45,590 nt of DNA from Prevotella sp. (GTDB taxonomy: Bacteria > Bacteroidota > Bacteroidia > Bacteroidales > Bacteroidaceae): positions 1 through 45,590 of the forward strand of contig JAFPZD010000068.1 of the NCBI GenBank assembly GCA_017417465.1, written 5' to 3'. Below, piece by piece: positions 799 to 39,891 of the stretch (within the stretch, counting starts at the first letter, position 1; the number at the start of each line of letters is the position of its first letter). Position numbers and translations under genes: made by a program. The notes under the pieces are model-generated. The model made no database searches. It was not told where the DNA came from and saw only the letters and a program-made list of their open reading frames with translations.

Positions 799-1893
799 TT
801 GAGATACCACGACCCACATAAGAAGAACGGCACCATCACCATCCGCGTGATGTGTGCCGTCGTCTTTATGCTCTTCTGCTTCCTCTGGCTCTATTTGTTT
901 CAGGGCGATGTCATGGCTTACGGACAGCATGTGCTCAGTGGGGGACAGACGCACTACGACCGCACCGTTGGCGCTGTCATTATCACTGTCGTGCTGCAAC
1001 TGCTACAGTTGGGCGTCTACGGCGTTGTGCGCCTTGCACGGCGAACCCATGCGCTGACCTACCTGCCGTCGATGCTCACATTGGCAGTGCTGTCACGTGT
1101 CAGCCCCGATATGACCGTCCACTCCGTCGTCCATGGCCATTGGTGGATTGTGGTTCTCATCCTTGTGGCGTGGGGTGGGGCAGTGTGGCTCTCGCGCCAC
1201 CTGCTACCGTTTGCCGACGACAACAAGGAGCTCACGGGACTCTTCTCGCAGCGGTCGTCCATCAACCTGCTGATCATGGTACTGATGATGCTGGGTGTGG
1301 TAGCCGTGAGCAATACCGAGGCTGTGTTCCACTTCAGGGCCCATGCCGAGGCGGCACTCCAGAGGGGCGATGTAGACGAAGTGCTGCGTGTGGGGAGCCG
1401 TTCGCATGAGACCGACGAGAGCCTCACCATGCTGCGCATCCATGCCCTGGCACGTCAGGGGCAGTTGGGCGAACGACTCTTTGACTACCCCATTGTTGGG
1501 CGTAGCACCGACATGCTGCCGCTGAAAGGCAGTCGCAGCCGACTGTTGGTGATGCGGCGTGACAGTCTGCTGAAGCATCTTGGAGGCCGTCCGCTTTATG
1601 CCATGGACGTCGACACCTATCTCCATGCCCTCCAGCGCGACTCGCTGGCCACGCCCCTCGTTGCCGACTACCTGCTGTGCAGCTACCTCATCGACCGCAA
1701 TCTCACTGCGTTTGCCGAGGCACTTCCCACTTATTATCCTGACTCGGTGGCGCTGCCCCGCTACTACCGCGAAGCCCTACAGGTCTATCATCAGCGCGAC
1801 TCCCTGCCCAAACCGGCCATGGACAACGCGGCCCGACTTCGTGCCTTCAAAGAGCAGCGCAACTCCTACTGGTTCTACTATTACTACCATTAG
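799..1893 (+). CDS. Integral membrane protein, DUF6057-like
   Basis: A membrane protein of 364 residues if it starts at the TTG at 799, or 347 if it starts at the ATG at 850; the latter removes only a charged leader and may be the real start. About five hydrophobic segments fill the first half (roughly residues 15-38, 55-76, 83-100, 115-132 and 150-172), followed by a soluble C-terminal half of about 180 residues rich in Arg, Leu and Tyr. The ending NSYWFYYYYH resembles the aromatic ends of Bacteroidetes DUF6057 proteins, which is the basis of the family call. The soluble half may be a helical-repeat (TPR-like) domain, but I cannot confirm this. Function unknown. It follows glgB on the same strand after 141 bp and is probably transcribed separately. 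Confidence 0.7.
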   Translation: MRYHDPHKKNGTITIRVMCAVVFMLFCFLWLYLFQGDVMAYGQHVLSGGQTHYDRTVGAVIITVVLQLLQLGVYGVVRLARRTHALTYLPSMLTLAVLSRVSPDMTVHSVVHGHWWIVVLILVAWGGAVWLSRHLLPFADDNKELTGLFSQRSSINLLIMVLMMLGVVAVSNTEAVFHFRAHAEAALQRGDVDEVLRVGSRSHETDESLTMLRIHALARQGQLGERLFDYPIVGRSTDMLPLKGSRSRLLVMRRDSLLKHLGGRPLYAMDVDTYLHALQRDSLATPLVADYLLCSYLIDRNLTAFAEALPTYYPDSVALPRYYREALQVYHQRDSLPKPAMDNAARLRAFKEQRNSYWFYYYYH

Positions 1894-2191
1894 TGTCCGG
1901 TAAACTTATAGTCGGTACCTCATCATGCCCTGCAGGGCTAACTTATCCCCCCTAACCTCCATTTGCGTCCGAAGAGACCTCCCCTAACCCCTCCTGTAGG
2001 AGGGGGATAAGTTACCTTTTCCGCTGCAGGTCTAACTTATCCCCTTTTCAGTTGCAGATCTAACTTATCCCCCTCCTACAGGAGGGGTTCTTCGCAGAGC
2101 GAAGCGGCAAAGCCGAGCGAGGGGAGGTCTCCACCGCCGCAAAACCGAGCGAGGGGAGATCTCTTACGGAAGTTTCTAACGACCAACTACT
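1894..2191. repeat. Gene-free spacer with palindromic REP-like elements
   Basis: This 298-bp spacer lies between a plus-strand and a minus-strand gene that converge here. It contains a perfect 27-bp inverted repeat (1988-2014 against 2061-2087, core CCCCTCCTGTAGGAGGGG) built from TAACTTATCCCC blocks. The segment 1976-2029 is an exact inverted copy of 40382-40435. Further GAGCGAGGGGAG blocks occur at about 2115-2160. It may act as a transcription end for both flanking genes, but there is no T-run terminator. Confidence 0.8.
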
Positions 2192-3691: not shown

Positions 3692-3811
3692 AGTCGTAAC
3701 TCGTTTGTTGATTATTTTGTTGAGAAAAGTCTAGTTTTATTCGATGGTGCCCACTCGTCGCCGTCACAGCCGGGCAGTCGCCCACTGTGCTTGCGGTGCT
3801 GGGGCCGAGCG

Positions 3812-4558
3812 TCACTGACACGCAAGCAGGAACGCCTCGGCACGGCGCAGGTCGTCGGGGGTGTCGATGCCCACGGTCTCCACGTCGGTGAGGCCCACGC
3901 GGATGCGGTAGCCGTTCTGCAGCCAGCGCAGCTGTTCCAGGCTCTCGGCCTTCTCGAGCGGGCTCTGCGGCAGGCGGGTGATCGCGCTGAGCACCTCGCG
4001 ACGGTAGGCATAGAGCCCGATGTGCTTCAGGAAGGTGAACTGCGTGAGCCACTCCTCGCGCGCGAATCCTCTTATATAAGGTATAAGGCTGCGGCTGAAG
4101 TAGAGCGCGTAGCCGTTCACATCGCAGACAATTTTCGGCGAGTTAGGGTTCTCAGCAGCCTCAAGGCTGTCGAAAGGTTTCCCTAACGTGGCAATCTGCG
4201 TGCGAGGGTCATCGTCGAACAGCGCCTTGATGGTCTCCAGCTGCGAGCGCTGGATGAAAGGCTCGTCGCCCTGCACGTTGATGACGACGTCGGCGTCAGT
4301 CTGCAGCAGTGTGGCTGCCTCCTCGATGCGGTCAGTGCCGCTTTTGTGGTCGGCGCGCGTCATGATGGCCTTGCCGCCGAAGGCCTCCACGGCCTCGCGG
4401 ATGCGCTTGTCGTCGGTGGCCACGTAGGTCTCATCGAGCACCTGACTCACCTGTTCGCACACGCGCTGAACGACGGTCTTGCCGCCCAGCATGGCCAAGG
4501 GCTTGCCGGGGAAGCGTGTTGAGGCATAACGTGCCGGGATGATTCCGATGTATTTCAT
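3812..4558 (-). CDS. kdsB: CMP-KDO synthetase (3-deoxy-manno-octulosonate cytidylyltransferase)
   Basis: 248 residues from the ATG at 4558; a longer frame runs upstream to 4609, but the family begins exactly at MKYIGIIPARY. Diagnostic motifs are IPARYASTRFPGKPL (residues 6-20), SGTDRIEEA and VINVQGDEPFI. The length is typical. It activates KDO with CTP for lipopolysaccharide inner-core synthesis in the cytoplasm. A TAACTTTG -7 element lies on the minus strand at 4582-4589, leaving a leader of about 20 nt. The KDO-8-phosphate phosphatase kdsC lies separately in the window at 22791, so the pathway genes are scattered. Confidence 0.96.
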   Translation of the reverse strand: MKYIGIIPARYASTRFPGKPLAMLGGKTVVQRVCEQVSQVLDETYVATDDKRIREAVEAFGGKAIMTRADHKSGTDRIEEAATLLQTDADVVINVQGDEPFIQRSQLETIKALFDDDPRTQIATLGKPFDSLEAAENPNSPKIVCDVNGYALYFSRSLIPYIRGFAREEWLTQFTFLKHIGLYAYRREVLSAITRLPQSPLEKAESLEQLRWLQNGYRIRVGLTDVETVGIDTPDDLRRAEAFLLACQ

Positions 4559-4581
4559 ATAGGGTAGTCGTAATTTGCTTG

Positions 4582-4589
4582 CAAAGTTA
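4582..4589 (-). promoter_or_regulatory. Probable -7 box (TAACTTTG) of kdsB
   Basis: On the minus strand the sequence reads TAACTTTG, matching the Bacteroidetes TAnnTTTG element, 23 nt upstream of the kdsB ATG. No convincing -33 TTTG is seen at the right distance. Confidence 0.5.
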
Positions 4590-4773
4590 CAAAAAAAACT
4601 TAAATCCATGTCACAATCGCTCGTTTTTTTTTCGAGTGAGACCTCTTTTTTCTACTTTGGGCCTCCTCATACCGCTTTTTGGGAAGGCGATCTCCCTCCA
4701 ACGATGACGCTCCCCTCGGTGTGTGCCGAGCGGGTTGGCGGTGTGCGCCGCCCACGTCCCCGAAAACCGGCAG

Positions 4774-6526: not shown

Positions 6527-6556
6527 CTGAAGAAATTCTTGTTTTTACTTAAAAAG

Positions 6557-6588
6557 TTTGCACAATCAGCGGAAAAGCATTATCTTTG
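6557..6588 (+). promoter_or_regulatory. Promoter of the VTC operon (TTTG-N20-TATCTTTG)
   Basis: TTTG at 6557-6560 and TATCTTTG at 6581-6588 are 20 bp apart, a full match to the Bacteroidetes consensus, 22 nt before the ATG at 6611. Confidence 0.8.
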
Positions 6589-6610
6589 CAACCAGTTTTA
6601 CAGAAACGAC

Positions 6611-7369
6611 ATGGACAAGCTACTTAAACAGTTCCCACCCATCACGCTGGAAGAGATGAGCGGCGTCAAGCTGATGAACCGCACGGACACGAAGTTCGTG
6701 ACGACGATGGCACAGCTGCGACGCCTGCTGGCAATGGCGCAGGGTGACTACTTCGTGCAGGAGATTGGCGGCGAGCGAAACATGCTCTACGACACGACCT
6801 ACTTCGACACCGAGGGCTTCGACATGTACAACGCCCACCAGCATGGGCATGCCGGGCGGCAGAAGATCCGCTTCCGTACGTACGTCAGCAGTCAGCTGCA
6901 GTTTATGGAGGTGAAGACAAAGAATAACCGCGGGCGAACGAAGAAGAAGCGCATTGAGGTGACCGACATGGACCTGGACGACAGCGAGAAGCGCGCTTTC
7001 CTGAGCCAGCACCTGCGCTACGATGCCGACAGCTTGCAGCCTCACATGCACAACTACTTCCACCGCGTGACACTAGTGAACCGTGGCAAGACGGAGCGGC
7101 TGACCATCGACACGCAGCTGGAGTTCCATAACGTGCTGACGGGCCGTGACCGTGACATGGGGCCGCTGGTAATCATTGAGCTGAAGCGCGACGGCCTGGT
7201 GTTCTCGCCGGTGCTTGAGATGCTGAGGCAGCTGCGCATCCATCCGCATGGGTTTAGTAAGTACTGCATGGGTGCTGCAATGACCAACGACGGCCTGCCG
7301 CTGCACCGCTTCAAGGAGAAACTGAGGGATGTGGAGAAGATATTGAGAATTGAGAATTGTGAATTGTGA
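6611..7369 (+). CDS. VTC-domain protein (polyphosphate polymerase-like)
   Basis: 252 residues; the start at 6611 follows the promoter, and the open frame before it lies across the promoter. It matches the VTC fold, the triphosphate-tunnel domain of the yeast vacuolar transporter chaperone polyphosphate polymerase. Visible elements are MNRTDTKFV (residues 22-30), YDTTYFDT (60-67), the basic strand KIRFR (85-89), FMEVKTK (98-104) and IIELKRDG (about 190). These supply the ring of Arg/Lys and the acidic metal ligands expected of the tunnel. Bacterial members are annotated as polyphosphate polymerase-domain proteins, but their product is mostly untested. The last residues (ILRIENCEL) are encoded by a heptamer repeat, so the natural C-terminus may have been altered. 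First gene of a five-gene run; DUF4956 follows after 26 bp. Confidence 0.85.
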   Translation: MDKLLKQFPPITLEEMSGVKLMNRTDTKFVTTMAQLRRLLAMAQGDYFVQEIGGERNMLYDTTYFDTEGFDMYNAHQHGHAGRQKIRFRTYVSSQLQFMEVKTKNNRGRTKKKRIEVTDMDLDDSEKRAFLSQHLRYDADSLQPHMHNYFHRVTLVNRGKTERLTIDTQLEFHNVLTGRDRDMGPLVIIELKRDGLVFSPVLEMLRQLRIHPHGFSKYCMGAAMTNDGLPLHRFKEKLRDVEKILRIENCEL

Positions 7370-8806: not shown

Positions 8807-9988
8807 ATGAGAAAGAACGTATTATACATCCTGCTGGCAGGCATGGCCATGGCCGGCATCGTGGCTTGTGAGAACGACGACACCGACTTTAGCAACTACA
8901 CGATAGGGACGGGTGAGAACGAAATAGAGGAGGAGCTCAGCGACACGCTCTGGATGAACATTGTCTACAGCGGTGCGACGGTGACGGTGGGTGGCGACGT
9001 GAGCGATTCGGTGACCATTGTCGCCAGCGGTGCCGACGTGACCGTCACCTCGACGCTGAATCGCTATCTGGAAGTGACGCTCAGCGGCACGACGACCGAC
9101 GGCTCGCTGCTGGTCAACAGCCAGAAACGATACGGCCTGGTGCTCAACGGCGTGAATATCACTAACGGCGACGGGCCTGCCATCAACAATCAGTGTAGCA
9201 AGGCCCTGTACCTCACTTTGGCCGATGGCACCACGAACATGCTGACCGACGGGACGGCGTATGCCGACGCACCCACAACGGCCGAGGGCATTGCCATCGA
9301 CCAGAAGGGCACGCTGTTCAGCGAGGGCCAGATTTACTTCAGAGGCACAGGCACGCTGACCGTCAACGGCAATGCTCGCAACGGCATCGCCTCGGACGAC
9401 TATATCGTCGTTGAGGACGGCAACATTACTATTAATGTGGCCGCAACAGGCACCAACGGCCTGAAGGTGAACGACGGGCTGGAGATACAGGGTGGCACGC
9501 TGGTCATCGGCGTGGCTGCCGACGGTGCCCGTGGCATAAAGAACGACGCCCGGACAACCATCAGCGGAGGCACCACCACCATTGCCACTTCGGGCGACTG
9601 CCTCATTGAGACGCTGAGCGACGGCACCCGCGACACTACGTCGTGTGCGGGCATCCGATGCGACAGTCTGTTCACCATGACGGCGGGTACCCTGAACATC
9701 ACGAGCAGCGGCGATGGCGGCAAGGGCATCAACTGCAACGAGGATGTGGTGTTCAGCGGTGGCACGCTGACCGTCGTCACCACTGGTAACAACAGTGTAG
9801 GCAAGCCGAAGGGCGTGAAGAGCGACACGGGCATCACCGTCAGCGGTGGCTCGTTCAGTGTCACTGTCAGGAAGAGCTGGGCCTGCGACAACGGCAGCGA
9901 CAGCGACGACCCTGCCGACATGCTGACCGTCGTCGGCACGCCAACGCGGAAGTCGATTGCCAAGCGCCAGGTTACCATTGTCTATTGA
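8807..9988 (+). CDS. Cthe_2159-like beta-helix lipoprotein (carbohydrate-binding domain family)
   Basis: 393 residues. A lipoprotein signal (GMAMAGIVAC) places the acylated cysteine at residue 21. It is followed by the acidic run ENDDTD, which resembles the export signal for surface-exposed lipoproteins in Bacteroidetes. From about residue 45 the sequence consists of short repeating rungs with regular V/I-T-V and N/D-G turns (VTIVASGADVTVTST, GNITINVAATG, GTLNITSSGDGG), which predicts a right-handed beta-helix. The overall pattern matches proteins annotated as carbohydrate-binding domain-containing (Cthe_2159 family, PF14262), one member of which binds acidic polysaccharide. In other bacteria such genes often accompany VTC, DUF4956 and CotH-kinase genes; no CotH gene is present here. 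Eleven bases separate it from the DUF2490 gene. Confidence 0.85.
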   Translation: MRKNVLYILLAGMAMAGIVACENDDTDFSNYTIGTGENEIEEELSDTLWMNIVYSGATVTVGGDVSDSVTIVASGADVTVTSTLNRYLEVTLSGTTTDGSLLVNSQKRYGLVLNGVNITNGDGPAINNQCSKALYLTLADGTTNMLTDGTAYADAPTTAEGIAIDQKGTLFSEGQIYFRGTGTLTVNGNARNGIASDDYIVVEDGNITINVAATGTNGLKVNDGLEIQGGTLVIGVAADGARGIKNDARTTISGGTTTIATSGDCLIETLSDGTRDTTSCAGIRCDSLFTMTAGTLNITSSGDGGKGINCNEDVVFSGGTLTVVTTGNNSVGKPKGVKSDTGITVSGGSFSVTVRKSWACDNGSDSDDPADMLTVVGTPTRKSIAKRQVTIVY

Positions 9989-26732: not shown

Positions 26733-29700
26733 CTATTCACCATCTTCTAATAAGTGGAAGAGTTTACGGGATCTGAGGCCGGCCATGATGTTGGTGACGC
26801 GCACAATGTCGCCGATACCCACCTGGCCGTCGCCATTGACATCGGCCCGATCGGCGATATCGGGATTTGCATTGGTACCTGCCATCACGTTGGTGATGGC
26901 CACGATATCACCAATACCTATCTGGCCGTCGCCGTTGACGTCGCCCTCGATCTCGCCCAGTATCTCGCCGTCCAATGCCAGCTTGATGGTCTTGTCGTTA
27001 CGGTCGGTGACTTTCACGAAGGCATTGAAGCGTCCCGAGCTGGTGGCAGTCTCCACAAGGTTTGCTTTCAGGCCCTTCACCAAGTAGAAGCCCTTATTGG
27101 CGGCGAGCGTCTGGTCGGTGTAGGTGCCGGTGATGGTGGCGGCTCCCATCGTCGAGCTGAGCGTTGATACGTCGGCGCTGATGGAGGTCTGTCCGAGGTT
27201 GTAGATGGACTGGTACTCAGCGCCATCGCTGATCAGTTGGTTGCTGTTCAGAGTGCCCACCCAGATGAGGTAGGGCACGTTGGCCTCCATCTGCTCAACA
27301 GTCTCGAACTGCAGTGCCCGGTTGTCGATGCCTGTCAGGCGTGCCACCCGCGTGCCTCCGCCGAATGCTGCTTGCGGGTCAGCCACGGGGCAGGGCAGGC
27401 AGACGGTGTTCCAGCCACCCTTGACGAAGGTGCGCTGCAGGCGCACGGTGGCCTGATCGATGTTCTCCGGCGTGTAGTCGACGCTTTCCTTGAGCAGTAT
27501 GCTCTCAGTGATGACCTTGAACTTCACCGTGAGGGTGGTTGTGCCCTTAACGGTGTAGGCGAAGGTCGGCTGGTTAGAGAGCAGACGGTCACCATCGTAG
27601 TAGCCTACGAAGCGATAGCCCTCCACAGGCTCTGCCTCCAGGTTGAGCACGGTGCCATAGTCGTAGACGGCGCTGACGACGTTGACCGTTCCGTGCCGCT
27701 CGTTGCAATCGATGGTTATCGTGCACTTGTTGGGCTTGAAGACGGCGCGCATGTTGTAGACTTTGTTCATGGACACCGTGACGGGGTTCTCGTCGGAGTA
27801 GCGGTTAATCTGATCCTCCAGCAGCGTGTTACCGGAAGCCTTGGCGGCCTGACGGGCGCGGGCAGAAGCGACCGACTCCACGTCCTCGCCGACCGTGCCC
27901 CAGTAGTCGAAGGTATAGCCTTCGGCGGGCTGTGCCGTCATGGTGACGTTAGTGCCGAAGTCGATTTCGCCGCTGGTGTCAATATTGTCACTCATGGCGA
28001 TGTTGCCAGCGGCAACTGTCGGCCATGCCTCAACATTGTACTGCACCAGACCGCCCTTGAAGAGCATCCAGCCTACCTGCTTGCCGTTCTTTCCGGCGAA
28101 GCCTTCCTTGTCGTTGACGCCATCGGTGTTCACCTGCAGGGTGTAGTAGCCGTTGCGGCTCACGTTCTGCATCTTCACAGTGTAGACGCTGTCGTTGTTG
28201 GCTGCCTTGGTGATGGCAATGTTCGAAGTGAGCTTCTCGCCCTCGTAGCGCAGCACCATGTCGTCGCGGGTAAACGTTGAGGCGTTGATGGGCTTGTTGA
28301 ACGTTACCGTCAGCTCGTCGAGCACGTCAACGGCAATGTCACTTCCCTGCGGCACCGTCTTAATGCTCTCGACATCGAGGCGCTTAGTCGGGGCAGGCTC
28401 GAAGGTGACTATGAAGGTGGTGTTGCCGTCACGATTCTTCTGGAACGGGATGAGCAGGTGCACCTTGTTGTCGCGGATGGGGTCGCCGCCGTCGTGCATG
28501 GTGTACTGTGTCTGCCATATCTCGCCCCTTTCGATAAGGTTTTGATACTTTTGATCAATTGTGTTTATCCCGTGAGCATCCTTGATGCCACCCTCGCCCA
28601 TGGTCGGGTCGGCAAACGACGTGTAGAGGAAGTTGAAGCCTTCTTGCATCTCGTCCTGATTGTCAATGTTGAACGTGACCCAATAAGTGTTGTTGCCCTT
28701 ATACTGCACTGTCGTCTTGTCGATATAGGAGAAGATGGGCAAGGTAGTGCCATCGTTCACATACATGCGGTCGGGCACTTCGGGCGGGTTAATACCGAGG
28801 TTGTCGTTGACGGCCCAGCCGTGCAAGTCTTCGGTCTGTGGTATCCAGTAGCCCATGAGTGCTCCCTTCGGCAGGCTGATACTGTGTATCAACTCGTGGA
28901 TGGTCACCTCGTCTAAGAGCGACAAGTCAGGATTACCGTACGACGTGAGGTGGTTCACAGCTATTTCGTACTTCGTGAAGTGTCCTAACAGCGATGACGT
29001 CAGCTCCCACTGGGCGTAGGAAGATTTACCGGCGGGGATGTCGCCGAAGACGGTAGCGATGGTGGAGTCGAGTGCCAGCACGGTCTCGCCACCATTGAGG
29101 CGCGACGAGAGGATGCTGAAGTCGATGAACAGTCCCTTCTCGTTGTCGATGATCTTCGGCTGGTGGGTGAACATGCGGATGTTCGTGGCGTCGCCGTTGC
29201 CCTTGTTGTTAATGAGCACAGCGAACTCTGCCGGCACGATGGGCTCGATGACATCCTTCGTCAGCGGGTCGTCGCCGTAGATGTCGCGCTGCACGAAGTA
29301 GGTCAGGTCAAGGACGGGTGAGGGCTTCACCTGCAGGCTGACGGGCAGCAGCGTGCGCACCTGTGTGACGCCATCGCCATCGGTGAAGTAGAGCGTGCCG
29401 CCGAAGCTCCATGTGGTCAGCGCCTCGGGTGCGGCATACTTCGTCGGGATGAAGAGCACGGTGGCCACGCCCTTGGCCTTCGGACCGAGGGTCCATGGGC
29501 CGTCGACGGAACCTTCGAAGCCATCGATGCTTTCGAAGTTGATCTGGAACTCATGGCTGGTGGCCTCGTTGCCTAACAGGTCCTTCACAAGAAGTGACAG
29601 TTCAATGCCGGTCAGGTCAGTGGACAGTCCGTTCTCAACAGTCAGTGTGCCTCGGAAGGCCTGGCGCGTCATCACCAGCTTCTGGTCAATCTCCAGTTTC

Positions 29701-32700
29701 ACGCTGGCGCAGGTGTTCTTGCCCATGTTCTCGTACATGTCGAGAAGGTCCTGCTGGGCACTTTCGTAGAGGTCGTCCCATGACTCGAAGCCTTTCAGCA
29801 CAAGGTCGTTCTCACAGGAGTCGAGGCGGTTGACGTACTCATTGATATAACGTGTGCGTGGAATCTCATCGCGCTCCAGCCATCTTTCTTCTTTTCTTGG
29901 GTAAGACTTGTCGCGCCAGAGAAGTTCATTATTAATAGACCCATCTTGGGGGTAATATCCGTGCATTTGGTAATGTGATTCTCGATAATTTAGATATCCT
30001 ATCCACTGTGCATACTTTTGGTAATATAGATGCATGCGGCTGACGTACTGGTCGTAGCTGAAGTCATAGTACTGGTCGGAGCCGTTGAGCTTGACAGCGT
30101 CTATCCGGTCTTGCATCTCTTCTATCGTTTTACCACCAGTCATAGTAGGAGGACTCCACGAATCCCATATAGAGCAATGCATTCCTTCCACCATCTCGGA
30201 GATGATGTTGTTCAGGGTGTCGATACTCTCCTGGAACTCCGACGTCAAATTGTCGAGCGCTTCTGGAGCATTCATGATTTCCTCCATCAAGTTAAACTCT
30301 GTCAGCAGGGCCTGTCCGTAGAGGTTCATCTTGGTGAGGTAGGTCAGGAAGTAGGAGTTGTCGACGTAGTTTTCCAGCAAATTCTGGTAGTACTCCACGG
30401 TGCCTTCCACCATGGCGGGATCCATTTCATCATCCTCGCTGCCGGTGCCCTCAGCCTTGTGTGGGCGGTGGGAACGTGAGAGGTAGTCGCCTCGGCCTAC
30501 ACCTTCGTAGACGTTTTTCACGCCGTTGTAGAAGTTCTTCCAGTCGTTAATTTTGTCTCTGATTCCGCCTGGGTTAGTAACGGCATCCTTGATATCTTTG
30601 ATTTGCCCATCTACTTTATGCTTGATGTTGGTTTTGAGGGTATTCTTGATCTTGTTCCAGCCACTGTCGTTACTCTGCCAGATGTCCACATAGTCGCGAA
30701 TGTCGTCAACGTCGTCGCTCCAGTCGGGTGTGGGCACAAGGTTCGACATGGCGCAGAGCAGGTCGATGGTACCGCGCAGGGCACCGTCGCTGGCTGCACG
30801 GAAGTTCAGACCGTTGCCTAAGCCTCCGTACACAGGTGTGCCGCCAGAACCGCCCCAAGCGCCACCGCCGTCGCCGCCACTGCAGCCGCCATTGCCGCCA
30901 GTGCCCACGTCCTTAATGAGATTGACGGTCTTGGCAACCCAGGCGTGCTTATGGTCTGAACCGCAAGGCCACTCCCAATCGGCCAGATACTTGCTGTTGC
31001 AGGGAAGGTTGCTGGCAGCCTTGAACATGCCGCGTGTGCCGGCAGTCTGCTCAACGTTATGTGTGACACGCACGGGGATGACATAGCTCTGCTGTGCACC
31101 TACAATTACACCCTCATGCTGCACCAGCGGTGTGAAGGTGAAGCCCTCGACCTCAGGCAGTGTGAGGTTGGTGCTCTGTGCGGCGATAAGTCCCTCGTTG
31201 CGCAGAATGATGTTGTAAAGCATTGACTTGCCCTCATCCAGCAGGTCGAGTCCCAGGGTGTCGGGGGCGCTCATGACGATGACGGGCACGGGCACCTGCG
31301 TCTCGTAGGTCAGGGTGCTGATGATTTCGTACTCGTCCTCAACCTCGGTCTCCACCACGTCCCAGCTCACGCCGATGGCCTGATAGGAAATGGTGGCGGT
31401 GTGGTTCTTCGTTTCGCCCGGCGACACGGTGACGTTCTGGCGGTAGTCGTCGTGCTTGGGAGCGGTGACATAGAGCTGGTAGAAGCCCTCGTTGATGTCG
31501 TTGAACGTCACGTAGCCGCTCGCGTCGGTGGTCAGCGTCTTGATGTCGGCGCCGGTGTTGTAGTCCTTCAGGCGCACGGTGGCCTCGCTGACATACGGGT
31601 GGTTGCCGTCCTTGTCGCCGTAGATGGTCATCTCGTCCTGAACATAGACCTTCAGGTTGCCCTTGCTCTCGCTGACGGTGGTGACGCTGAAGTGGATGAC
31701 GGTGCCGTTGCCGTTCTCGCAGTTGATGGCGATGGTGCCCGTCTGCTCAACGTTCACGTCGAAGCCCTGACTATCGAAGCGTAGCAGTATCATCGTGCTG
31801 TCGCCGCGCTCCAGTGAGGGCAGCTGTGAGGCTGATGCCAGCGTGACGAACTTGCCCATGCCGGTGGGCAGCGAGATGGTGATCTTGCCCGTGGCTGTCT
31901 CGCCCTTGTTGGTGAGCCAGATGGGGTAGGTGCGTGGCTGGGTAATCTGGACGGTGGTCTTGATGTTGTTCTCGCTGACGGCCAGGTCGGCGGTGCGCAT
32001 CTTCACGAAGTTCCAGGTGTTTACGTTCAGCGTGGCACCCTCGTCACACTTGATTTGGAACTGAATCTGTTCGTAGTTGGTAATGTTGGTAAGCGACTTG
32101 CCGGTGATGGTGTATTTCAGGTCTACCTCACCGTTGGCGGGCAGCGTGGCAATGGGCGTCACCTGGATGTCGTAGTTGTTGGTGGCACCGGTGAAGGTCA
32201 TCGACACGTTGTGCAGGGCGAGGCCGCAGGTGTTGCGCAGGCGCATGACGAAGGAGCTGGTCTCGTCCTTGTACACCTCGTGTACGGTGTAGCTGGTCTC
32301 TGTGCGCTGCATGCCGTAGACCTCGAATGAGCCAAGGTAATTCTGCGACGTCTCTATGTCGGCACGGTTGCAGGCTCCGATTTTGACGGTGCCTGAGAAG
32401 CTGGCGGGGATAGTACGGTCGGCAATGAATGAGCCATCGGTTCTGATGCCGCCCGTCGGGCCGAATGATTCGCGCTGTCCATTGCAGTCCATGAAGAGCC
32501 ACAAATTGTGGACCGTGTTCACTTGTCCGTCAATGCCTATGCAGGTGCCGGTGAAGTTGGCCTTCTCACCAACGTTGTAGCCGGTCTTCTTCGCTGCCAA
32601 GGTATAGTTGTAGAGGCTATTGCCCGTCAGTTCCACGATTTGCGATGTGTTGTTGGTGGTGAGCAGCTCTACGGGCTTGTTGTCAGGATTGACGACAGCC

Positions 32701-35147
32701 TTTACCTGATAGGTACCGGTGCAGGGGAAGTTTTTGGGGCGGAAGGTGAAGGTTTTGGCTTCGCCCTTATTCACCACGACGGGTATGGTGTAGGTGGTCC
32801 ATTCGGTGTCGCCATAGTAGAGCTTCACGGGTACATTGGAGGGAGCAGCGGCTGAGCCGATGTTCTTCACCTGTATGGTGGCGTAGATGGGCGTTCCTTC
32901 GTTGACGAGGGTCTTGTCAAGTGTAAACGACGTGATGGTCAGGTCGGGCATGGTGCGGTCGCTGATGAGCAGCCATGTGCTGCCGGCACTGTAGCCTGTG
33001 GCTTGTGCGACGACGCTCACCGTGCGGTCGCCCTCGGCGACATCGTTGCTCAGTGCACGGAATGTGGTGGTGACGCTCTTCTGTCCGGCCGGGATGGTCA
33101 CCGTCTTGCTGAACTCCACGTCGGCAGCATCGCTCGTCAGCGTCACGGCGAGGGCACCGCCGCTGGTGGTGTTGCGGCTGATGGTCAGTGTGCAGCCCTC
33201 TTCGGCACCTTCGAGGATGGTCGACTGGTTGGCAATGACGCTGAGCGTCGGTCCGTCGTCGTCGGTGATGGTGATGGAGTCGATCACCACGGCCTGCTTG
33301 TCGCCAATGGCGTCGCAGTTACAGTCGCTCATGTAGACTGAGGCACGGATGCGCACCGTGCGGTCGCCGTCCACCTCCTGGTTGTCCTTCACGCCAAGTG
33401 GGAACTTGACCGTGGTGGTACCGGCGGGCATGGTGAGCGTCTGCTGGCTGTAGTAGATGTCGTTCAAGCCGTCGTCGGCCAGCTTGATGGTGATCTTGTT
33501 GTTGGTCACCTCTGTGCGGGTGATGATGCCCATCATGGCCTGCGGGCCGGCACCCTCGCTGACGGTCTTCGGCGAGAGGGTCATGCTGATGGCGGGTGTG
33601 TCGTCGTCGTGGAGCATGAATACGACCTCGCCCGTCTGATAGTGCTCGGCAGTACCGCTGAGGCGGATGCTCATGTCGTTGGCCGGCTGGTTGTCCTGAA
33701 TGATGGGAATGTCGATAGTGGCCTGCAGGGCGCCGTCAGGGAAGACGATGCGCTGGGGCAGCTTGAAGCGTTTCTGCTCCTCGATGTTCAGATAGACGGC
33801 CAGCTGTTCAGCCCATGGGCGCTGCGGCACGCTGACGGTGAGGTGGATGGTCTCGCCCTCGTTGTAGTCAGACTTGTCGACGGTGAAGGTCAGGGGAACG
33901 AGGTTGGTCTCTTCCATCGTCACCGTATCGGTCACGACATCGTAGCCGTTGTTCTGGTTGGCGTTGACAATGACGGCCACCTTGGGGTCGACGTCGTAGC
34001 GATTGTTCTGCACGGCATAGACATAGAAGCTGGTGCGGTTGGAGCCTTTGGCAAAGGTAACCGTGCCGTCGTTCGAGAAGCGCAGACGGTCGGTCTTGCC
34101 CGAGGCGTCGCGACTGGTAATATTGAACGTCTCGGCAATCGAGGTGTTGCCGGTGCGGCGCAACTCGCAATAGTAGCCATTGGTGGAGTTCTTGGGAATG
34201 ACGGTCTTATTGGCTGTCAGCTGCAAGTATTTGTTGACGCGCAGCGAGTAGCTGCTGGCGGTGGCGGTGTTGTTCGCCTGGTTGATGGTGCTTTCACCAC
34301 AGTCGGCTGCAGGCACGACCTGCACGACGGGGCGGCAAAGGCCACCGATGCCTGGAAAGTCGTCCAGGGTGAATGTGGCAGTGCGCGAGACGGAGCCATT
34401 GACAGCCAGTGTGCCATCGTAGGCCGTCGTGCCCACGTAGACCTGAGCGCCAGTGGTCTGGCTCTCCAGGTAGATGCGCTCGGTCCATCCGGCGCCTGTT
34501 GCCAGGTCGCCAATGTTCTTGACAGTCCATGAGAATTCGAGCTCACCGGCGGGGTCGACGAGCGTCTGCTTCACACGTACGTTCGAGGGCTGCAGGTCGG
34601 GGCGGGGAACGGTCTCGATGGTCACCGAGCCGTCGGCCTGTGAGGTCAGCACATTCTGCTGCTCACGGTTGGTCAGCACAACGCTGTTGGCCATCAGATA
34701 GACTGGATAGACGACGCCGTTGCCCAAGTCAGCGGGCAGGGGCAGGTCTACCGTGAGCACTGCTCCCGTGCTGCCTACGATGCGGCTGTTTTCACTGCTA
34801 TAGACAATGATGCGGTAGGTCTTGTAGGACGACACACCGCCGTTCACTGCAGGGTCACGCCAGTGACCGCTGCTTGTCAGGCGTGTTGTCACGGTGTGGT
34901 TGGCGCAGCGCGTCTTCGACAGGGTGACTGCCGTGTTGTTGTTCTCATCGAGTGCGAGCTCGTAGGGCACATCAATGTCGAACTGTACACCGACGATGTC
35001 GCTGCTGTTTTCCATCTCAATGGGCAGGCTGACGGTTTTGCCCGCCGGGCAGGTCACTGCCCCCACACGCAGTACGTTGGTCTGCGCCTGCATAACGGCA
35101 GCTAAGCACAGCAACGCTGCTAATAGTTGGAATCTTAAGTATCTCAT
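26733..35147 (-). CDS. Giant secreted protein with cohesin-like N-domain, CARDB and Calx-beta repeats, and C-terminal dockerin
   Basis: 2804 residues. Signal peptide 1-22. Residues about 24-180 resemble a cohesin (VGAVTCPAGKTVSLPIEMEN, VGVQFDIDVP, then DGSVTI). Next come a CARDB-like domain (about 184-300), Calx-beta-like domains (about 410-730; ILEGAEEGCTLTISRN), a second CARDB (about 734-840) and a carboxypeptidase-regulatory-like domain (about 1160-1255). A Gly-rich linker (about 1415-1445) and a helical, more AT-rich middle (about 1455-1815) follow. Further beta domains include an SbsA-like Ig domain (about 2260-2370) and an InlB-like repeat (about 2470-2545). The end, 2735-2795, is a dockerin with two Ca-loops, DVNGDGQIGIGDIV and DVNGDGQVGIGDIV. 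Likely surface or extracellular. It starts 28 bp after the BspA-like gene, so both share a transcript. No enzyme domain was recognised; function unknown. Confidence 0.82.
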   Translation of the reverse strand: MRYLRFQLLAALLCLAAVMQAQTNVLRVGAVTCPAGKTVSLPIEMENSSDIVGVQFDIDVPYELALDENNNTAVTLSKTRCANHTVTTRLTSSGHWRDPAVNGGVSSYKTYRIIVYSSENSRIVGSTGAVLTVDLPLPADLGNGVVYPVYLMANSVVLTNREQQNVLTSQADGSVTIETVPRPDLQPSNVRVKQTLVDPAGELEFSWTVKNIGDLATGAGWTERIYLESQTTGAQVYVGTTAYDGTLAVNGSVSRTATFTLDDFPGIGGLCRPVVQVVPAADCGESTINQANNTATASSYSLRVNKYLQLTANKTVIPKNSTNGYYCELRRTGNTSIAETFNITSRDASGKTDRLRFSNDGTVTFAKGSNRTSFYVYAVQNNRYDVDPKVAVIVNANQNNGYDVVTDTVTMEETNLVPLTFTVDKSDYNEGETIHLTVSVPQRPWAEQLAVYLNIEEQKRFKLPQRIVFPDGALQATIDIPIIQDNQPANDMSIRLSGTAEHYQTGEVVFMLHDDDTPAISMTLSPKTVSEGAGPQAMMGIITRTEVTNNKITIKLADDGLNDIYYSQQTLTMPAGTTTVKFPLGVKDNQEVDGDRTVRIRASVYMSDCNCDAIGDKQAVVIDSITITDDDGPTLSVIANQSTILEGAEEGCTLTISRNTTSGGALAVTLTSDAADVEFSKTVTIPAGQKSVTTTFRALSNDVAEGDRTVSVVAQATGYSAGSTWLLISDRTMPDLTITSFTLDKTLVNEGTPIYATIQVKNIGSAAAPSNVPVKLYYGDTEWTTYTIPVVVNKGEAKTFTFRPKNFPCTGTYQVKAVVNPDNKPVELLTTNNTSQIVELTGNSLYNYTLAAKKTGYNVGEKANFTGTCIGIDGQVNTVHNLWLFMDCNGQRESFGPTGGIRTDGSFIADRTIPASFSGTVKIGACNRADIETSQNYLGSFEVYGMQRTETSYTVHEVYKDETSSFVMRLRNTCGLALHNVSMTFTGATNNYDIQVTPIATLPANGEVDLKYTITGKSLTNITNYEQIQFQIKCDEGATLNVNTWNFVKMRTADLAVSENNIKTTVQITQPRTYPIWLTNKGETATGKITISLPTGMGKFVTLASASQLPSLERGDSTMILLRFDSQGFDVNVEQTGTIAINCENGNGTVIHFSVTTVSESKGNLKVYVQDEMTIYGDKDGNHPYVSEATVRLKDYNTGADIKTLTTDASGYVTFNDINEGFYQLYVTAPKHDDYRQNVTVSPGETKNHTATISYQAIGVSWDVVETEVEDEYEIISTLTYETQVPVPVIVMSAPDTLGLDLLDEGKSMLYNIILRNEGLIAAQSTNLTLPEVEGFTFTPLVQHEGVIVGAQQSYVIPVRVTHNVEQTAGTRGMFKAASNLPCNSKYLADWEWPCGSDHKHAWVAKTVNLIKDVGTGGNGGCSGGDGGGAWGGSGGTPVYGGLGNGLNFRAASDGALRGTIDLLCAMSNLVPTPDWSDDVDDIRDYVDIWQSNDSGWNKIKNTLKTNIKHKVDGQIKDIKDAVTNPGGIRDKINDWKNFYNGVKNVYEGVGRGDYLSRSHRPHKAEGTGSEDDEMDPAMVEGTVEYYQNLLENYVDNSYFLTYLTKMNLYGQALLTEFNLMEEIMNAPEALDNLTSEFQESIDTLNNIISEMVEGMHCSIWDSWSPPTMTGGKTIEEMQDRIDAVKLNGSDQYYDFSYDQYVSRMHLYYQKYAQWIGYLNYRESHYQMHGYYPQDGSINNELLWRDKSYPRKEERWLERDEIPRTRYINEYVNRLDSCENDLVLKGFESWDDLYESAQQDLLDMYENMGKNTCASVKLEIDQKLVMTRQAFRGTLTVENGLSTDLTGIELSLLVKDLLGNEATSHEFQINFESIDGFEGSVDGPWTLGPKAKGVATVLFIPTKYAAPEALTTWSFGGTLYFTDGDGVTQVRTLLPVSLQVKPSPVLDLTYFVQRDIYGDDPLTKDVIEPIVPAEFAVLINNKGNGDATNIRMFTHQPKIIDNEKGLFIDFSILSSRLNGGETVLALDSTIATVFGDIPAGKSSYAQWELTSSLLGHFTKYEIAVNHLTSYGNPDLSLLDEVTIHELIHSISLPKGALMGYWIPQTEDLHGWAVNDNLGINPPEVPDRMYVNDGTTLPIFSYIDKTTVQYKGNNTYWVTFNIDNQDEMQEGFNFLYTSFADPTMGEGGIKDAHGINTIDQKYQNLIERGEIWQTQYTMHDGGDPIRDNKVHLLIPFQKNRDGNTTFIVTFEPAPTKRLDVESIKTVPQGSDIAVDVLDELTVTFNKPINASTFTRDDMVLRYEGEKLTSNIAITKAANNDSVYTVKMQNVSRNGYYTLQVNTDGVNDKEGFAGKNGKQVGWMLFKGGLVQYNVEAWPTVAAGNIAMSDNIDTSGEIDFGTNVTMTAQPAEGYTFDYWGTVGEDVESVASARARQAAKASGNTLLEDQINRYSDENPVTVSMNKVYNMRAVFKPNKCTITIDCNERHGTVNVVSAVYDYGTVLNLEAEPVEGYRFVGYYDGDRLLSNQPTFAYTVKGTTTLTVKFKVITESILLKESVDYTPENIDQATVRLQRTFVKGGWNTVCLPCPVADPQAAFGGGTRVARLTGIDNRALQFETVEQMEANVPYLIWVGTLNSNQLISDGAEYQSIYNLGQTSISADVSTLSSTMGAATITGTYTDQTLAANKGFYLVKGLKANLVETATSSGRFNAFVKVTDRNDKTIKLALDGEILGEIEGDVNGDGQIGIGDIVAITNVMAGTNANPDIADRADVNGDGQVGIGDIVRVTNIMAGLRSRKLFHLLEDGE

Positions 35148-35175: not shown

Positions 35176-38100
35176 TTACTTCTTCACTTTAAACTGTTTG
35201 CCGTTCACGTTGACGACGTAGACGCCCTGAGGCAGCGAGTGCCACGGACCGACGGGACGGCCCTGCAGGTCGTAGACCTGTCCCGTTTGTTGCTGTATCA
35301 CAGCAACAGACCCCACACCGGTAGCCGTGTCGCCGACGACGGTGACGCCAAGGTGGCGGGCTTCGGCATTGCTCAGGTAGACGTCGCTGACGGTAGCGCC
35401 TGTGGGCAGGCTGTTCAGCAGCTCGTGCTCACCGGCGGCAAGGGTGTTGCCAGCAGGCGAGTAGACGACGATGCGCACACCGTCGACCACGTCGCGCATG
35501 GTGACCGAGAAGCCGGCGCGCAGGGCGTTGCTGACGTTGAGCTGGCGGCTGTTGGCACCGCTGACGGTCAGCTGCAGGGCGGCCACCTCGTCGCTGTTGG
35601 CGAGTGTGACGCTGCTGCCACTGACAGTAATCAGGTTGCTGCTTTCAGGCGACACCATATTATTAATACGCGCGCGTGAGCCTGATGGCTGCTCGAAGCC
35701 GAGCAGGAAGTCCACGGTGCCTACGATGTCGCTGACGTTGATCTTCTCGTCGCCGTTGGTGTCGGAACAAGCGAAGTTGTACATGACGCCGGCGGGCTTC
35801 GCGTCGTTCAGGGCGTAGTAGATGACGCTCTGCAGGTCGGTGACGTCGACCGTCTGGTCGGCGTTCACGTCGCCGTCAGTCCAGGTGAGCCTGAGCAGGA
35901 TGGTCTGCTGGTTGCCGCCGATGGAGTAGGCCAGTACCTTGTCCTTCTCGGCCTTCAGTGGGTAGTTGCTGGTGTAGAGATTCCACTGCCCGTCGGTCTT
36001 ATAGAACTCCCAGACGTTGGGCCACGGGGTGTAGTAGCTGTTGGTGTGGTAGAAGCGGGCCAAGTCGTTGCTGGTGTAGCCGAAGTCCTGGTTGCTGTGG
36101 CGGTAGGTTGACAGACGATTGGTCGGTAGTGTGAAGGGCACGCCGACGGTGACATCGGTGACGGGTGCGTTCGAGGGCACCACAAGCTCACTGGTGGCGT
36201 AGTCGAAGAACTGACGGTTATAGGTAAAGTTTGTCAGCGTCGTCTTGGGGATGACTTGTGAGATGTCGGTCAGACGGTTGTAGCTGACGTCGAGCTTCGT
36301 CAGGGTCGTCAGCTTCGAGGCGAAGGGATAGATGTCGCCAGTGAGCAGGTTGCCCTGGAGGTAGAGCTCGGTGAGGGGTGCGAGCGCATCGGCCGACTTG
36401 CCGTTGAACAGGGTGCCGATGTTGCCGGTGAGCTGGTTGTTGCTCAGGTTCAGCGTCTGTAGCTGCTTCAGCAGGAACAGCGAGTCGGGCAGCTGGCCGG
36501 TGAGGCCCTGTGCCGAGAGGTTGATGCCGGTGATGCGGTAGAGGTCGGTGCTGCTTTCGACGGTGGTGACCCCTGCCCACTTGCCAGTGGCATAGTGGTT
36601 GTTGTCGAGGTCCCACTGTGTGCTCTTCCACTGCGTGCCGCCCAGCTCACGATAGAGCTTCTTCAGCACAGCATAGTCGAGGTCGTCGAGCACGGCGCCC
36701 ATGAAGAAGCTGCGAATCTCCTTGAAGTCCTTCCAGAAGGTGGCCTCCTGATAGAGTGACTCTGTTCCCTCGGGCACCTCGAGCACGCATTTTGAGCGGA
36801 AATCCTTGCTGTAGGTGTCGCTCTTGGGCGGCGTGCCGGCATAGACACGCATCAGCTGCAGTGAGTCGCAGCCATAGACGGCAGTGAAGCTGGTCCATTG
36901 CGAGTAGTCCTGGTTGCGGCCGAAATAGATGCTCTTCAGACGCTTGCAGTTCTCGAAGCAGTGAGAGCCGAGGTCGGCGGTGAAGCCGTCGGGAACGCGG
37001 AAAGTCTGTAGCTGTGAGTTGGAGAAGGCGTATCCATCAATATTTGTTATGTTCTCAGGCAGGTCAATCTCCGTCAGGCCACTCTGATCGAAGGCCATCC
37101 AGCCTATCTCGGTGACGGTGGCGGGCAGGTTGATGTGCTGCAGGGCGGTGGCCTTTTGGAAGGTGTAGTTTGGTATGCGCGTAAGATTGGCAGGCAGCTT
37201 GACGCTGACGAGGTTAGGCGTGTTGCAGAAGACACTGTTGCCAAGGGTGGTGAGACCGTCGGGAAGAACCACACTGCTGATGGCGCAGCCGTTGAAGGCG
37301 TCGCCGGCAATCTCGGTGACACCATCGGGGATGGTCAGCGTGCCAGTAATCTTGGGCGTTTCGCGGAACGACGAGCCGCCGATGTAGGTCAGGGCGGTGG
37401 GCAGCTTGGTGAGCACCAGCTCCTTACAGTTCCAGAAGGCATCGTACTCGATGCGCGTTATTTGGTCGTTCAGCACGATGGACGGCAGCTTCACGCAGTC
37501 GCGGAAAGCACGGTATTTGATGGTGCGGATGCCGTTGTGCATCGTGACGGTGGTCAGATTCGGGCAGTTGAAGCAGTAGGCGTTAGGTACGTAGTCGATG
37601 CCAGTGGGCACGTTAACGGTCGTCAGATTGGCACAGTCTTCGAAGACGGAGCCTTCCATCCACGCGATGGAGTTGGGCAGAGTGACGGTGGTCAGACCCG
37701 TGTTGCGGAATGCCTCACCATAAACCGTGGTCAGCGTCGTCTGATTCAGGCCGTTGACGGTGGTCAGCTTCGTACAGTCATGGAAGACGCGGCTGCCGAT
37801 TTCGGTGACGCCAGTGGGCAGGGTGGCGGTGGTCAGGTTGCCGCAGTGGTAGACAAGTCCTCTTGGTATTGCCTTGATGTTGGCTGGGACGGTGAACTGG
37901 GTGATGGCCTCGCAGTACTCGAAGGCCCAGTCGCCGATGCTGGTAATGGTCGACGGCAAACTGATAGCTGCGACGGCCTTGCACTCGCTGAAGGCAGCAT
38001 AGCCGATGGACTCTAGCCCTTCGTTGAAGGTGATGCTGGGCAGCACCCAGTTGTAGCGGAAGGCATAGTTGCCGATGCTCTTGCACGAGGCAGGGATGAC

Positions 38101-39891
38101 GAGGGGCGACGTGCGTACCTTGTTATTAAAGAAAGCGTAGTCGCCAATGCTTTCGACGGTGGAGGGTATGTTGACCGTTTCCAAGGCGTAGCACTCGCTG
38201 AAGGGGCCGTGGCCGATGGTCTTAAGACCATTGGACAGCGTGGCGCTGACCAGCTTTTCACAGTGCCAGAACACCTCTTGCTCCAGTGCGGTAACGCCGC
38301 TGGGGACGGTCACCTGGGTGATGCCGGTGTAGTAGAAGGCATCGCGCCCGATGGTCTTCACACCAGATGGAATGGGACACTCGGTGAGACGGAATCGGTT
38401 GCCGTGATCGCGCTCCTGACAGATGGCATACTCGCCGATGGCGGTGGTGCCGCTGGGCAGCTTGAGCGAACGCAAATGAGGCATGTCGTAGAACATGAAG
38501 TTACCCACAACGTTGGCCTCCGTGTTGTAGACGGTGCTGCCGTATTGTGTCACTGCGCCATTGTCCCAATGCCAGCGCGCGTAGCTGTCGCCGCCAGCAA
38601 CGATGGAAGCATTGGTCAAGTCAAGCTTCTGTAGACCCCACATCTGCTGATGCAGGAAGTTGATATCGGTGCCGTTCAGCGGTCCGCTGACGGTCAGCTC
38701 AATGATGTTGGCGGGGTCGCCCTTGGCCATCACTTTCTGCTCTAACTGTCCGCCGGCGGTGGTGGTAACACTGATTGTGGTGGGCTGGCCGATGGGCACG
38801 ATGTGGTACTTCTTGGTGAAGTCGTTAGTGCGGTAAGTGTCCACCAGGTCAGGATTGACGTAGAGCGTTATACTTCCTGGTAGGGCATAGCCCTGTTCGA
38901 AGGGGTAGTTCGGGCCAGGGAAGGTCAGCTTCTGGAGGTTAGTCATATTGGAGCCGCACCAGGTGTAGTCTGTGCCTAACGAGGTGAGCCCTGTGCCGAA
39001 GTTAATCTCGGTGAGCGACGTGCAGGCGTAGAAGACGCCTTGGCCGATGGTCTCGACGGCATCGGGCAGGGTGATCGACTGCAGACTGGGGCAGCCGGCG
39101 AACGTGTTGTAGGGGATGGTCGTGATGTTGGGCGAGCCGTTGAAGACGCACGAGCGCAACAGGGCGCAGTTGTCAAAGGTCTGATCGCCTAATGATGTGA
39201 GGTTACCTGGGAAACTGACGGTTTCCAGTTTGTCACAATTATAAAAGACCTGTTTTCCCAAGGTCAGGTTGCCAGTGCCAGTGGTAAAGGTGACCGTCTT
39301 CAAATTGTTGCATTGATAGAACCCGTAGTTCTCGATACTGGTCAGGCTGGCGGGCAGGGTGATGCTCGTCAGGGCGTGACAGTAGTCAAAGCAGTCGTTT
39401 TTGATGGTTGTCAGGCTGGTGGCCGCACTGAGGTTGATGGAAGACAAGGCGGCACAGTCACGGAAGGCGTGGGAGCCCAGAATCTGTACTTTAGAGTTCA
39501 GGGTGACGCTCACGAGTTTTGAGCAGCCGCTGAAAGCATAGTTGCTTGTGCCATCGGGGCCGCCAACAGCGATGATGTTCTTTCCGAACGTGATGCTTAC
39601 GAGGTTGCCGCGGTTGCCGACACCGCCACTGACGTAGAGCACCTGGTGGCTCACACCGTTGGCATCGGTAACGGCATCGGCGATGATGATGCGGCCGGCC
39701 TTCGATGCGTCGGAAGCGTAGGTCTTGACGGTCTTGAAAGTGGCAGGGCCGTCGGCGCTGTCGTAGCTATAGGTCAGCTCGTTGCCGTTGGCATCGGCTA
39801 CCACCACGTCGGTGGCTGAGGCCATAAGCGGCAGGGCGAGGCTGAGCATAAGCAGGGCGCAGCGCAGGTGGGTTAATCTGACTTTTTTCAT
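35176..39891 (-). CDS. BspA-like leucine-rich-repeat surface protein with dockerin and T9SS-like tail
   Basis: 1571 residues. Signal peptide about 1-26. Residues about 95-1080 are tandem BspA-type (LRR_5) repeats, at least two dozen by eye (pattern C-x-x-L-x-x-V-x-x-P-x-x-V-x-x-I-G). A block of classical leucine-rich repeats follows at about 1150-1240 (LQTLNLSNNQLTGNI). A dockerin-like pair of Ca-loops, DVNADQTVDVTDL and DTNGDEKINVSDI, lies near residues 1339-1390. The C-terminus (VYDLQGRPV, LPQGVYVVNVNGKQFKVKK) resembles type IX secretion sorting domains. BspA-type proteins mediate adhesion to host proteins and other bacteria in oral species. It is the first gene of a two-gene transcript with the cohesin/dockerin giant. 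Confidence 0.88.
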   Translation of the reverse strand: MKKVRLTHLRCALLMLSLALPLMASATDVVVADANGNELTYSYDSADGPATFKTVKTYASDASKAGRIIIADAVTDANGVSHQVLYVSGGVGNRGNLVSITFGKNIIAVGGPDGTSNYAFSGCSKLVSVTLNSKVQILGSHAFRDCAALSSINLSAATSLTTIKNDCFDYCHALTSITLPASLTSIENYGFYQCNNLKTVTFTTGTGNLTLGKQVFYNCDKLETVSFPGNLTSLGDQTFDNCALLRSCVFNGSPNITTIPYNTFAGCPSLQSITLPDAVETIGQGVFYACTSLTEINFGTGLTSLGTDYTWCGSNMTNLQKLTFPGPNYPFEQGYALPGSITLYVNPDLVDTYRTNDFTKKYHIVPIGQPTTISVTTTAGGQLEQKVMAKGDPANIIELTVSGPLNGTDINFLHQQMWGLQKLDLTNASIVAGGDSYARWHWDNGAVTQYGSTVYNTEANVVGNFMFYDMPHLRSLKLPSGTTAIGEYAICQERDHGNRFRLTECPIPSGVKTIGRDAFYYTGITQVTVPSGVTALEQEVFWHCEKLVSATLSNGLKTIGHGPFSECYALETVNIPSTVESIGDYAFFNNKVRTSPLVIPASCKSIGNYAFRYNWVLPSITFNEGLESIGYAAFSECKAVAAISLPSTITSIGDWAFEYCEAITQFTVPANIKAIPRGLVYHCGNLTTATLPTGVTEIGSRVFHDCTKLTTVNGLNQTTLTTVYGEAFRNTGLTTVTLPNSIAWMEGSVFEDCANLTTVNVPTGIDYVPNAYCFNCPNLTTVTMHNGIRTIKYRAFRDCVKLPSIVLNDQITRIEYDAFWNCKELVLTKLPTALTYIGGSSFRETPKITGTLTIPDGVTEIAGDAFNGCAISSVVLPDGLTTLGNSVFCNTPNLVSVKLPANLTRIPNYTFQKATALQHINLPATVTEIGWMAFDQSGLTEIDLPENITNIDGYAFSNSQLQTFRVPDGFTADLGSHCFENCKRLKSIYFGRNQDYSQWTSFTAVYGCDSLQLMRVYAGTPPKSDTYSKDFRSKCVLEVPEGTESLYQEATFWKDFKEIRSFFMGAVLDDLDYAVLKKLYRELGGTQWKSTQWDLDNNHYATGKWAGVTTVESSTDLYRITGINLSAQGLTGQLPDSLFLLKQLQTLNLSNNQLTGNIGTLFNGKSADALAPLTELYLQGNLLTGDIYPFASKLTTLTKLDVSYNRLTDISQVIPKTTLTNFTYNRQFFDYATSELVVPSNAPVTDVTVGVPFTLPTNRLSTYRHSNQDFGYTSNDLARFYHTNSYYTPWPNVWEFYKTDGQWNLYTSNYPLKAEKDKVLAYSIGGNQQTILLRLTWTDGDVNADQTVDVTDLQSVIYYALNDAKPAGVMYNFACSDTNGDEKINVSDIVGTVDFLLGFEQPSGSRARINNMVSPESSNLITVSGSSVTLANSDEVAALQLTVSGANSRQLNVSNALRAGFSVTMRDVVDGVRIVVYSPAGNTLAAGEHELLNSLPTGATVSDVYLSNAEARHLGVTVVGDTATGVGSVAVIQQQTGQVYDLQGRPVGPWHSLPQGVYVVNVNGKQFKVKK

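Follow-up and report, generated by a model that had tools for sequence, protein, structure and literature searches.

Gene B of the window (the whole analysed stretch, 45,590 nucleotides of a Prevotella sp. contig) encodes a cohesin and a dockerin at opposite ends of a single chain, and on balance it is probable that this protein is a monovalent adaptor whose two ends bind two different partners, within a cohesin-dockerin surface system of Bacteroidales that has been little studied. The term adaptor is used here in the cellulosome sense, because the two ends are inferred to bind different partners. In what follows, G, C and L denote genomes, contigs and loci, with G000 for the window's own genome and C202 for the contig of the window. 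This genome is a fragmented assembly of 4.4 Mb in 278 contigs, with 90.8% completeness and 5.5% estimated contamination.

Domain organization of gene B

From its signal-peptide-like start onwards, the gene B protein presents an N-terminal cohesin, a CARDB domain, a carboxypeptidase-regulatory-like domain, a Big_5 domain, an InlB B-repeat and a C-terminal dockerin that leaves 18 residues to the protein end (Table 1). This layout of one cohesin and one dockerin per chain, on a protein predicted to be secreted by a signal-peptide rule of thumb, is that of a monovalent adaptor scaffoldin. Several cohesins were not found on gene B, as one domain exceeded the Pfam cut-off and profile A2 gave one strong match and one with an E-value of 0.065; a further cohesin-profile match, weak at 11 bits and spanning residues 1025-1117 in the open frame, was not counted. 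Searches for a C-terminal T9SS type A tail with TIGR04183 and PF18962 gave no match, the end being occupied by the dockerin.

The preliminary description had read the two ends as a cohesin and a two-loop dockerin, and both readings were confirmed when the isolated domains were compared with PF00963 and PF00404, since each scored above the curated cut-off. The cohesin passed narrowly (24.8 bits, cut-off 24.1); it was absent from the Pfam scan of the whole protein at E ≤ 0.1 and was recovered by scanning the domain alone. The dockerin was unambiguous (35.2 bits, cut-off 22.9), with two calcium-loop repeats. Moreover, when a profile built from 19 related domains was compared with the PDB, cohesin entries were the best 20 of the 26 sequences listed. 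The AlphaFold2 model of the N-terminal domain, obtained with 62 natural sequences (pLDDT 93.8, pTM 0.87), had the cohesin beta-sandwich fold, and all 50 structural neighbours listed were entries holding cohesins. The N-terminal domain of gene B is a cohesin.

Table 1. Position of genes A and B and of their parts in the window
Feature	Position	Strand	Remarks
Gene B (P0001)	26733..35147	-	2804 aa
Gene B apparent type I signal peptide	35085..35147	-	residues 1-21; heuristic
Gene B N-terminal cohesin, modelled stretch	34587..35087	-	residues 21-187
Gene B CARDB domain	32643..32948	-	residues 734-835; Pfam scan
Gene B carboxypeptidase regulatory-like domain	31392..31595	-	residues 1185-1252; Pfam scan
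Gene B best-conserved body region, alignment A3	29118..29630	-	query for finding relatives
Gene B Big_5 domain	28098..28361	-	residues 2263-2350; Pfam scan
Gene B divergent InlB B-repeat, better of two stretches	27510..27704	-	residues 2482-2546
Gene B C-terminal dockerin, genome-wide 'GIGDIVAITN' class	26790..26945	-	residues 2735-2786
Gene A (P0002)	35176..39891	-	1571 aa; same strand as gene B
Gene A dockerin, proposed cognate of the gene B N-cohesin	35725..35874	-	
Gene A degenerate cohesin-like domain (Coh')	35317..35640	-	51.7 bits to profile A2, itself a member
Gene A C-terminal tail resembling T9SS sorting tails	35179..35388	-	

The upstream gene A and the joint occurrence of its dockerin with the N-terminal cohesin

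Gene A lies 28 bp upstream of gene B and encodes, in this order, BspA-type LRRs, a dockerin, a cohesin-like domain (Coh') without a Pfam cohesin match and a T9SS-type tail. The tail matched neither TIGR04183 nor PF18962 and scored 54 bits with the analysis's own tail profile; it is also a member of another profile, drawn from the tails of this genome. Because the curated T9SS models do not match them, the T9SS identity of several tails, including this one, rests on resemblance, by which the gene A LRR protein would bear its own T9SS-type tail. Upstream of the A-B pair, P0003 (40578-42377, minus strand) combines Kelch repeats with an AraC-type HTH and a probable transmembrane segment, and looks like a membrane-spanning regulator; another, different sensor-like gene is found beside the A-B pair of contig C264 (L114). 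Elsewhere in the window, a VTC-domain gene lies near a Cthe_2159 carbohydrate-binding-domain gene (6542-7369 and 8807-9985, plus strand).

The search for relatives by the N-terminal cohesin failed, because this domain is too variable to serve as a query. A profile of the body region, which covers neither end, was used instead, and the resulting census is therefore free of selection for cohesin or dockerin. Against GTDB r220 contigs it found 173 relatives, and the analysis went on with the best 80; their titles name Prevotella, Alloprevotella, Paraprevotella, Muribaculaceae and other Bacteroidales, many from rumen or gut assemblies. Two relatives stand under Firmicutes names (L186 and L188, Erysipelotrichaceae and Pseudoflavonifractor contigs), labels that either wrong binning or transfer could explain.

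Sixty-eight of the 80 loci could be scored, after the removal of seven with gene B cut at its start and five without an adjoining ORF of at least 200 aa. Of these, 60 had the N-terminal cohesin together with the gene A dockerin and eight had neither, with no mixed case (Fisher p 1.4e-10, without correction for kinship), against a background of dockerins in 12 of the 296 remaining ORFs of 200 aa or more at the loci. Among the eight loci with neither trait, gene B had no cohesin match in one, and in seven the cohesin lay deeper, behind repeats. In a gene B sub-family represented by L151, L158, L162, L170, L174, L177 and L194, repeats precede a cohesin situated inside the chain, and the gene upstream lacks a dockerin. 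On the tree each of the two traits changed five times and all four independent pairs agreed; the kinship-corrected joint loss gave p 0.125, the lowest value reachable with four pairs, so that this test cannot reach 0.05. The window's genome holds four giant gene B proteins with an N-terminal cohesin, on C202 (the window), C206, C264 and C76, and all four directly follow a gene A that encodes a dockerin and a tail-like C-terminus.

A natural fusion of genes A and B

Locus L167 has genes A and B merged into one ORF, in which residues 31-764 correspond to gene A of L172 (49%) and residues 792-2726 to gene B of L172 (63%). The last dockerin of A stands directly before the cohesin of B, and Coh' and the tail of A as well as the signal peptide of B are missing. 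The fused dockerin is weak against the analysis's own profile (8.7 bits, E 0.12). The key expectation of the adaptor reading is that this dockerin docks onto the adjoining cohesin. An AlphaFold2 model of the dockerin-cohesin segment (pLDDT 83.6, pTM 0.61) showed both the weak dockerin and the cohesin folded, with low confidence for the linker and the relative placement; its alignment of 10 dockerin and 20 cohesin rows was chosen among many trial subsets, not blind, because in it each set of rows aligned with its own domain. A fusion of this kind would be expected if the two were partners, although it is no proof of binding.

Because of the gene order, the joint presence and absence of the two domains and this one natural fusion, we infer that the N-terminal cohesin of gene B would most likely bind the dockerin of the LRR protein encoded by the upstream gene A. 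An unlikely alternative is that Coh' caps the gene A dockerin in cis and that the gene B cohesin binds something else. The succession of a dockerin and a cohesin-like domain, common in gene A and also seen in other proteins, would fit such capping. However, Coh' is degenerate and falls below the 8-bit listing threshold in many gene A proteins, whereas the N-terminal cohesins of complete gene B proteins reach 72-158 bits, and L167 has the cohesin of B where Coh' was, although this could also mean that Coh' is replaceable.

A dockerin in place of the T9SS tail

The C-terminus was complete in 76 relatives, of which 56 matched the tail profile, 12 were tail-like by pattern, five had other ends and three ended in a dockerin (L150, L153 and L156, the last on a Xylanibacter rodentium contig). 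The tail profile was built from tails picked by pattern in these same loci and is therefore not independent of the failure of the curated models on many tails. In most relatives gene B would be anchored by its C-terminal T9SS tail. Alignment of the window protein with the near relative L119 holds until about residue 2730; beyond this point the former continues into the dockerin and the latter into a T9SS-type tail. Within the window's genome, the paralogues on C202 and C206 end in a dockerin, that on C264 matches the analysis's own tail profile (22 bits), and that on C76 reaches 36.4 bits with TIGR04183, yet does not match the own tail profile. The C-terminal dockerin needs three changes on the tree. 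A dockerin of a second class, common to about 50 proteins of the genome, has replaced the T9SS tail of gene B in the window's lineage.

The T9SS translocon marker SprA_N is present in the window's genome with 707 bits, and 121 matches were found at E ≤ 0.01 to the tail profile built from the genome's own tails. There are two strong SprA_N matches, at C206:101222-102799 and C221:2315-3877 (707 and 690 bits), which may reflect either contamination or an additional gene for the T9SS translocon.

Two classes of dockerin in one genome

A pattern search of the fetched stretches of this genome gave 63 dockerin ORFs, and in 53 of them the dockerin lay at most 70 residues from the protein end; 51 of these 53 have a signal-peptide-like start by a rule of thumb that leaves a few doubtful. 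The GIGDI motif occurs in 49 of the 51 terminal dockerins that could be extracted as pairs, with a mean pairwise identity of 0.76, and three more dockerins of this class lie away from the protein end. The C-terminal dockerin of gene B shares an identity of 0.64-0.83 (mean 0.74, n=48) with the other members of the class and of 0.27-0.33 with the four gene A dockerins of this genome. By these identities, the terminal dockerin of gene B and the gene A dockerins form two classes. A tree of the cohesins sets most N-terminal cohesins apart from those of the C7 type described below, but with 39 of 91 branches open it is weakly resolved, and it was not used as proof of classes because its base is weak.

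The class difference bears on the head-to-tail chains or closed rings suggested in the preliminary description, in which the C-terminal dockerin of one gene B molecule would bind the N-terminal cohesin of the next. Both domains do stand on one chain in the window protein, in its paralogue on C206 and in L153 and L156. However, the C-terminal dockerin is missing in 73 of the 76 relatives with a complete C-terminus, the N-terminal cohesin tracks the upstream dockerin, and the class of the terminal dockerin is unlike that of the dockerins accompanying N-terminal cohesins here, and about 50 other proteins would compete with it. L150, moreover, ends in a dockerin without showing an N-terminal cohesin, although it has no adjoining gene A and its N-terminus may be incomplete. 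Chains or rings are unsupported by these data, and we hold them to be very unlikely.

In a Pfam scan of 51 terminal-dockerin proteins, from which the window protein and that of C206 were left out for exceeding 1800 residues, the 25 commonest of 83 families comprised several LRR types, Cleaved_Adhesin (3), Peptidase_C10 (2), rhamnogalacturonan lyase domains (2) and cohesin (2), and no cellulase family was among these 25. Across dockerin-rich genomes of the family, the dockerins bear a signature of their own genome, with identities of 0.51-0.80 within genomes and 0.37-0.50 between them, in a non-random sample of 40 high-scoring dockerins from seven genomes (1 to 10 each) set against 15 from this genome. 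Thirty-four of the 40 lie at most 26 residues before a stop, and the other six reach the end of the fetched stretch. A private receptor in each species would produce such a signature, as would homogenisation by recombination.

Cohesin carriers and the candidate receptor

The window's genome holds 66 Pfam dockerins and four Pfam cohesins; the lineage profile, which included seven sequences from this same genome, gave 13 cohesin-like matches at E ≤ 0.1, ten of which had E-values no higher than 2.8e-10. On contig C7 a gene for a 232-aa cohesin-dockerin protein precedes one for a 234-aa cohesin that bears a T9SS-type tail (23.6 bits with TIGR04183, cut-off 23), and C106 encodes a cohesin protein of 293 aa with half a dockerin. 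The succession of a tail-less cohesin-dockerin gene and a cohesin gene with a tail was found in nine of 22 loci, a descriptive count in loci chosen for holding cohesins (G102, G086, two in G113, G017, G060, G010, G148 and C7). The terminal dockerin would most likely hold gene B, by a non-covalent bond, to the cohesin of a T9SS-anchored protein, for which the 234-aa protein of C7 is the candidate; this receptor of the terminal dockerins is a guess from gene context, and surface location and export route are likewise presumed.

Cohesin proteins with half a dockerin, that is, one calcium loop, were also seen in L242 (G129, 1801-2679) and L247 (G078, 2145-3449), besides that of C106 (L037, 9448-10326), whose half dockerin bears the signature of its own genome. 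Multi-cohesin proteins occur in L241 (G139, 1475-4621), with three cohesins, and in L247 (2145-3449), with two, and these are possibly true scaffoldins in Bacteroidales.

In 151 genomes of the family, cohesin-type domains were detected in 64 by the lineage profile (E ≤ 1e-5), versus 35 over the Pfam cut-off. Pfam dockerins accompanied them in 61 of the 64, leaving three genomes with cohesin only, 26 with dockerin only and 61 with neither; kinship is uncorrected in these counts, the thresholds for the two domains differ, and the profile includes members from four of these genomes. The 26 genomes without a cohesin-type domain (E ≤ 1e-5) among the 87 with dockerins are a gap in the adaptor model, and either their cohesins were missed or their dockerins are truly orphan.

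This gap would suit a different reading, in which the terminal dockerin is an export or sorting tag read by the T9SS or another machine, with no cohesin involved. The dockerin also occupies the site of the T9SS tail of the near relative L119, and it forms the very C-terminal end of unrelated proteins, each genome having its characteristic form. However, the known T9SS tails are beta-sandwich domains, and genomes with cohesins are nearly always dockerin-positive, which makes a tag of this kind quite unlikely. It is also conceivable that these domains are non-binding structural relics, the cohesin folds serving as spacers and the dockerins as calcium-stabilised ends, since cohesins and dockerins occur outside cellulosomes and the PDB entry 2xdh is titled a non-cellulosomal cohesin; nevertheless, joint presence and absence and a genome-specific signature on unrelated proteins are unexpected of inert spacers, and we regard this possibility as highly improbable.

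Returning to the adaptor reading, a broader extension of it may be proposed tentatively, as a possibility we consider less likely than not: many Bacteroidales might use two interchangeable surface tags, namely the T9SS tail and a species 'barcode' dockerin read by a few cohesin-tail carriers, with gene B as the adaptor between the dockerin pool and the LRR-dockerin/cohesin pair. If this were true, dockerin proteins would reach the surface and stay on it by riding on, or docking to, the cohesin-tail carriers.

Comparison with known systems

Both the domains and the adaptor layout were already known. A survey of rumen bacteria reports dockerins in Bacteroidetes, including Prevotella, and calls their role undefined (PMC7480376), and Bacteroidetes cohesins were reported earlier (PMC6071333). 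In the literature searched, that is, titles, abstract openings and some passages, with subscription journals mostly outside, no Prevotella cohesin-dockerin system was described, nor was the conserved A-B pair, the exchange of a tail for a dockerin or a genome-specific terminal class in Prevotella-type bacteria. The present analysis names candidate partners for Bacteroidetes dockerins and points to a possible second means by which common bacteria of the gut and rumen hold proteins at their surface.

Non-cellulosomal cohesins resembling that of gene B, namely Clostridium perfringens NagJ and Archaeoglobus fulgidus 2xdh, were among the PDB profile or fold matches, although they belong to other organisms and other architectures. 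Unlike primary scaffoldins of the CipA kind, gene B has one cohesin and no Pfam carbohydrate-binding module at E ≤ 0.1. The genome as a whole is reminiscent of Ruminococcus albus, for which many dockerins, few cohesins and an anchoring by single cohesins are proposed (PMC6118326), as it also combines many dockerins with few cohesins; however, the anchor proposed here is a T9SS-type tail, and the terminal-dockerin proteins, going by the 25 of 83 families shown, include LRRs and peptidase, adhesin and rhamnogalacturonan lyase domains.

A close parallel in layout is found in the monovalent adaptor scaffoldins, such as ScaC of Ruminococcus, which combine one cohesin with one dockerin and for which a switch between dockerin types is proposed (PMC11557425). 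Their prior description makes incomplete the earlier premise that in most known systems cohesins and dockerins sit on different proteins. Like these adaptors, gene B has one cohesin and one dockerin, and its ends belong to different classes. In contrast to them, it is 2804 aa long, carries CARDB, Ig-like and InlB-like repeats, stands beside an LRR protein, belongs to a genome with a T9SS marker, and bears its dockerin in the position that a T9SS-type tail occupies in a near relative.
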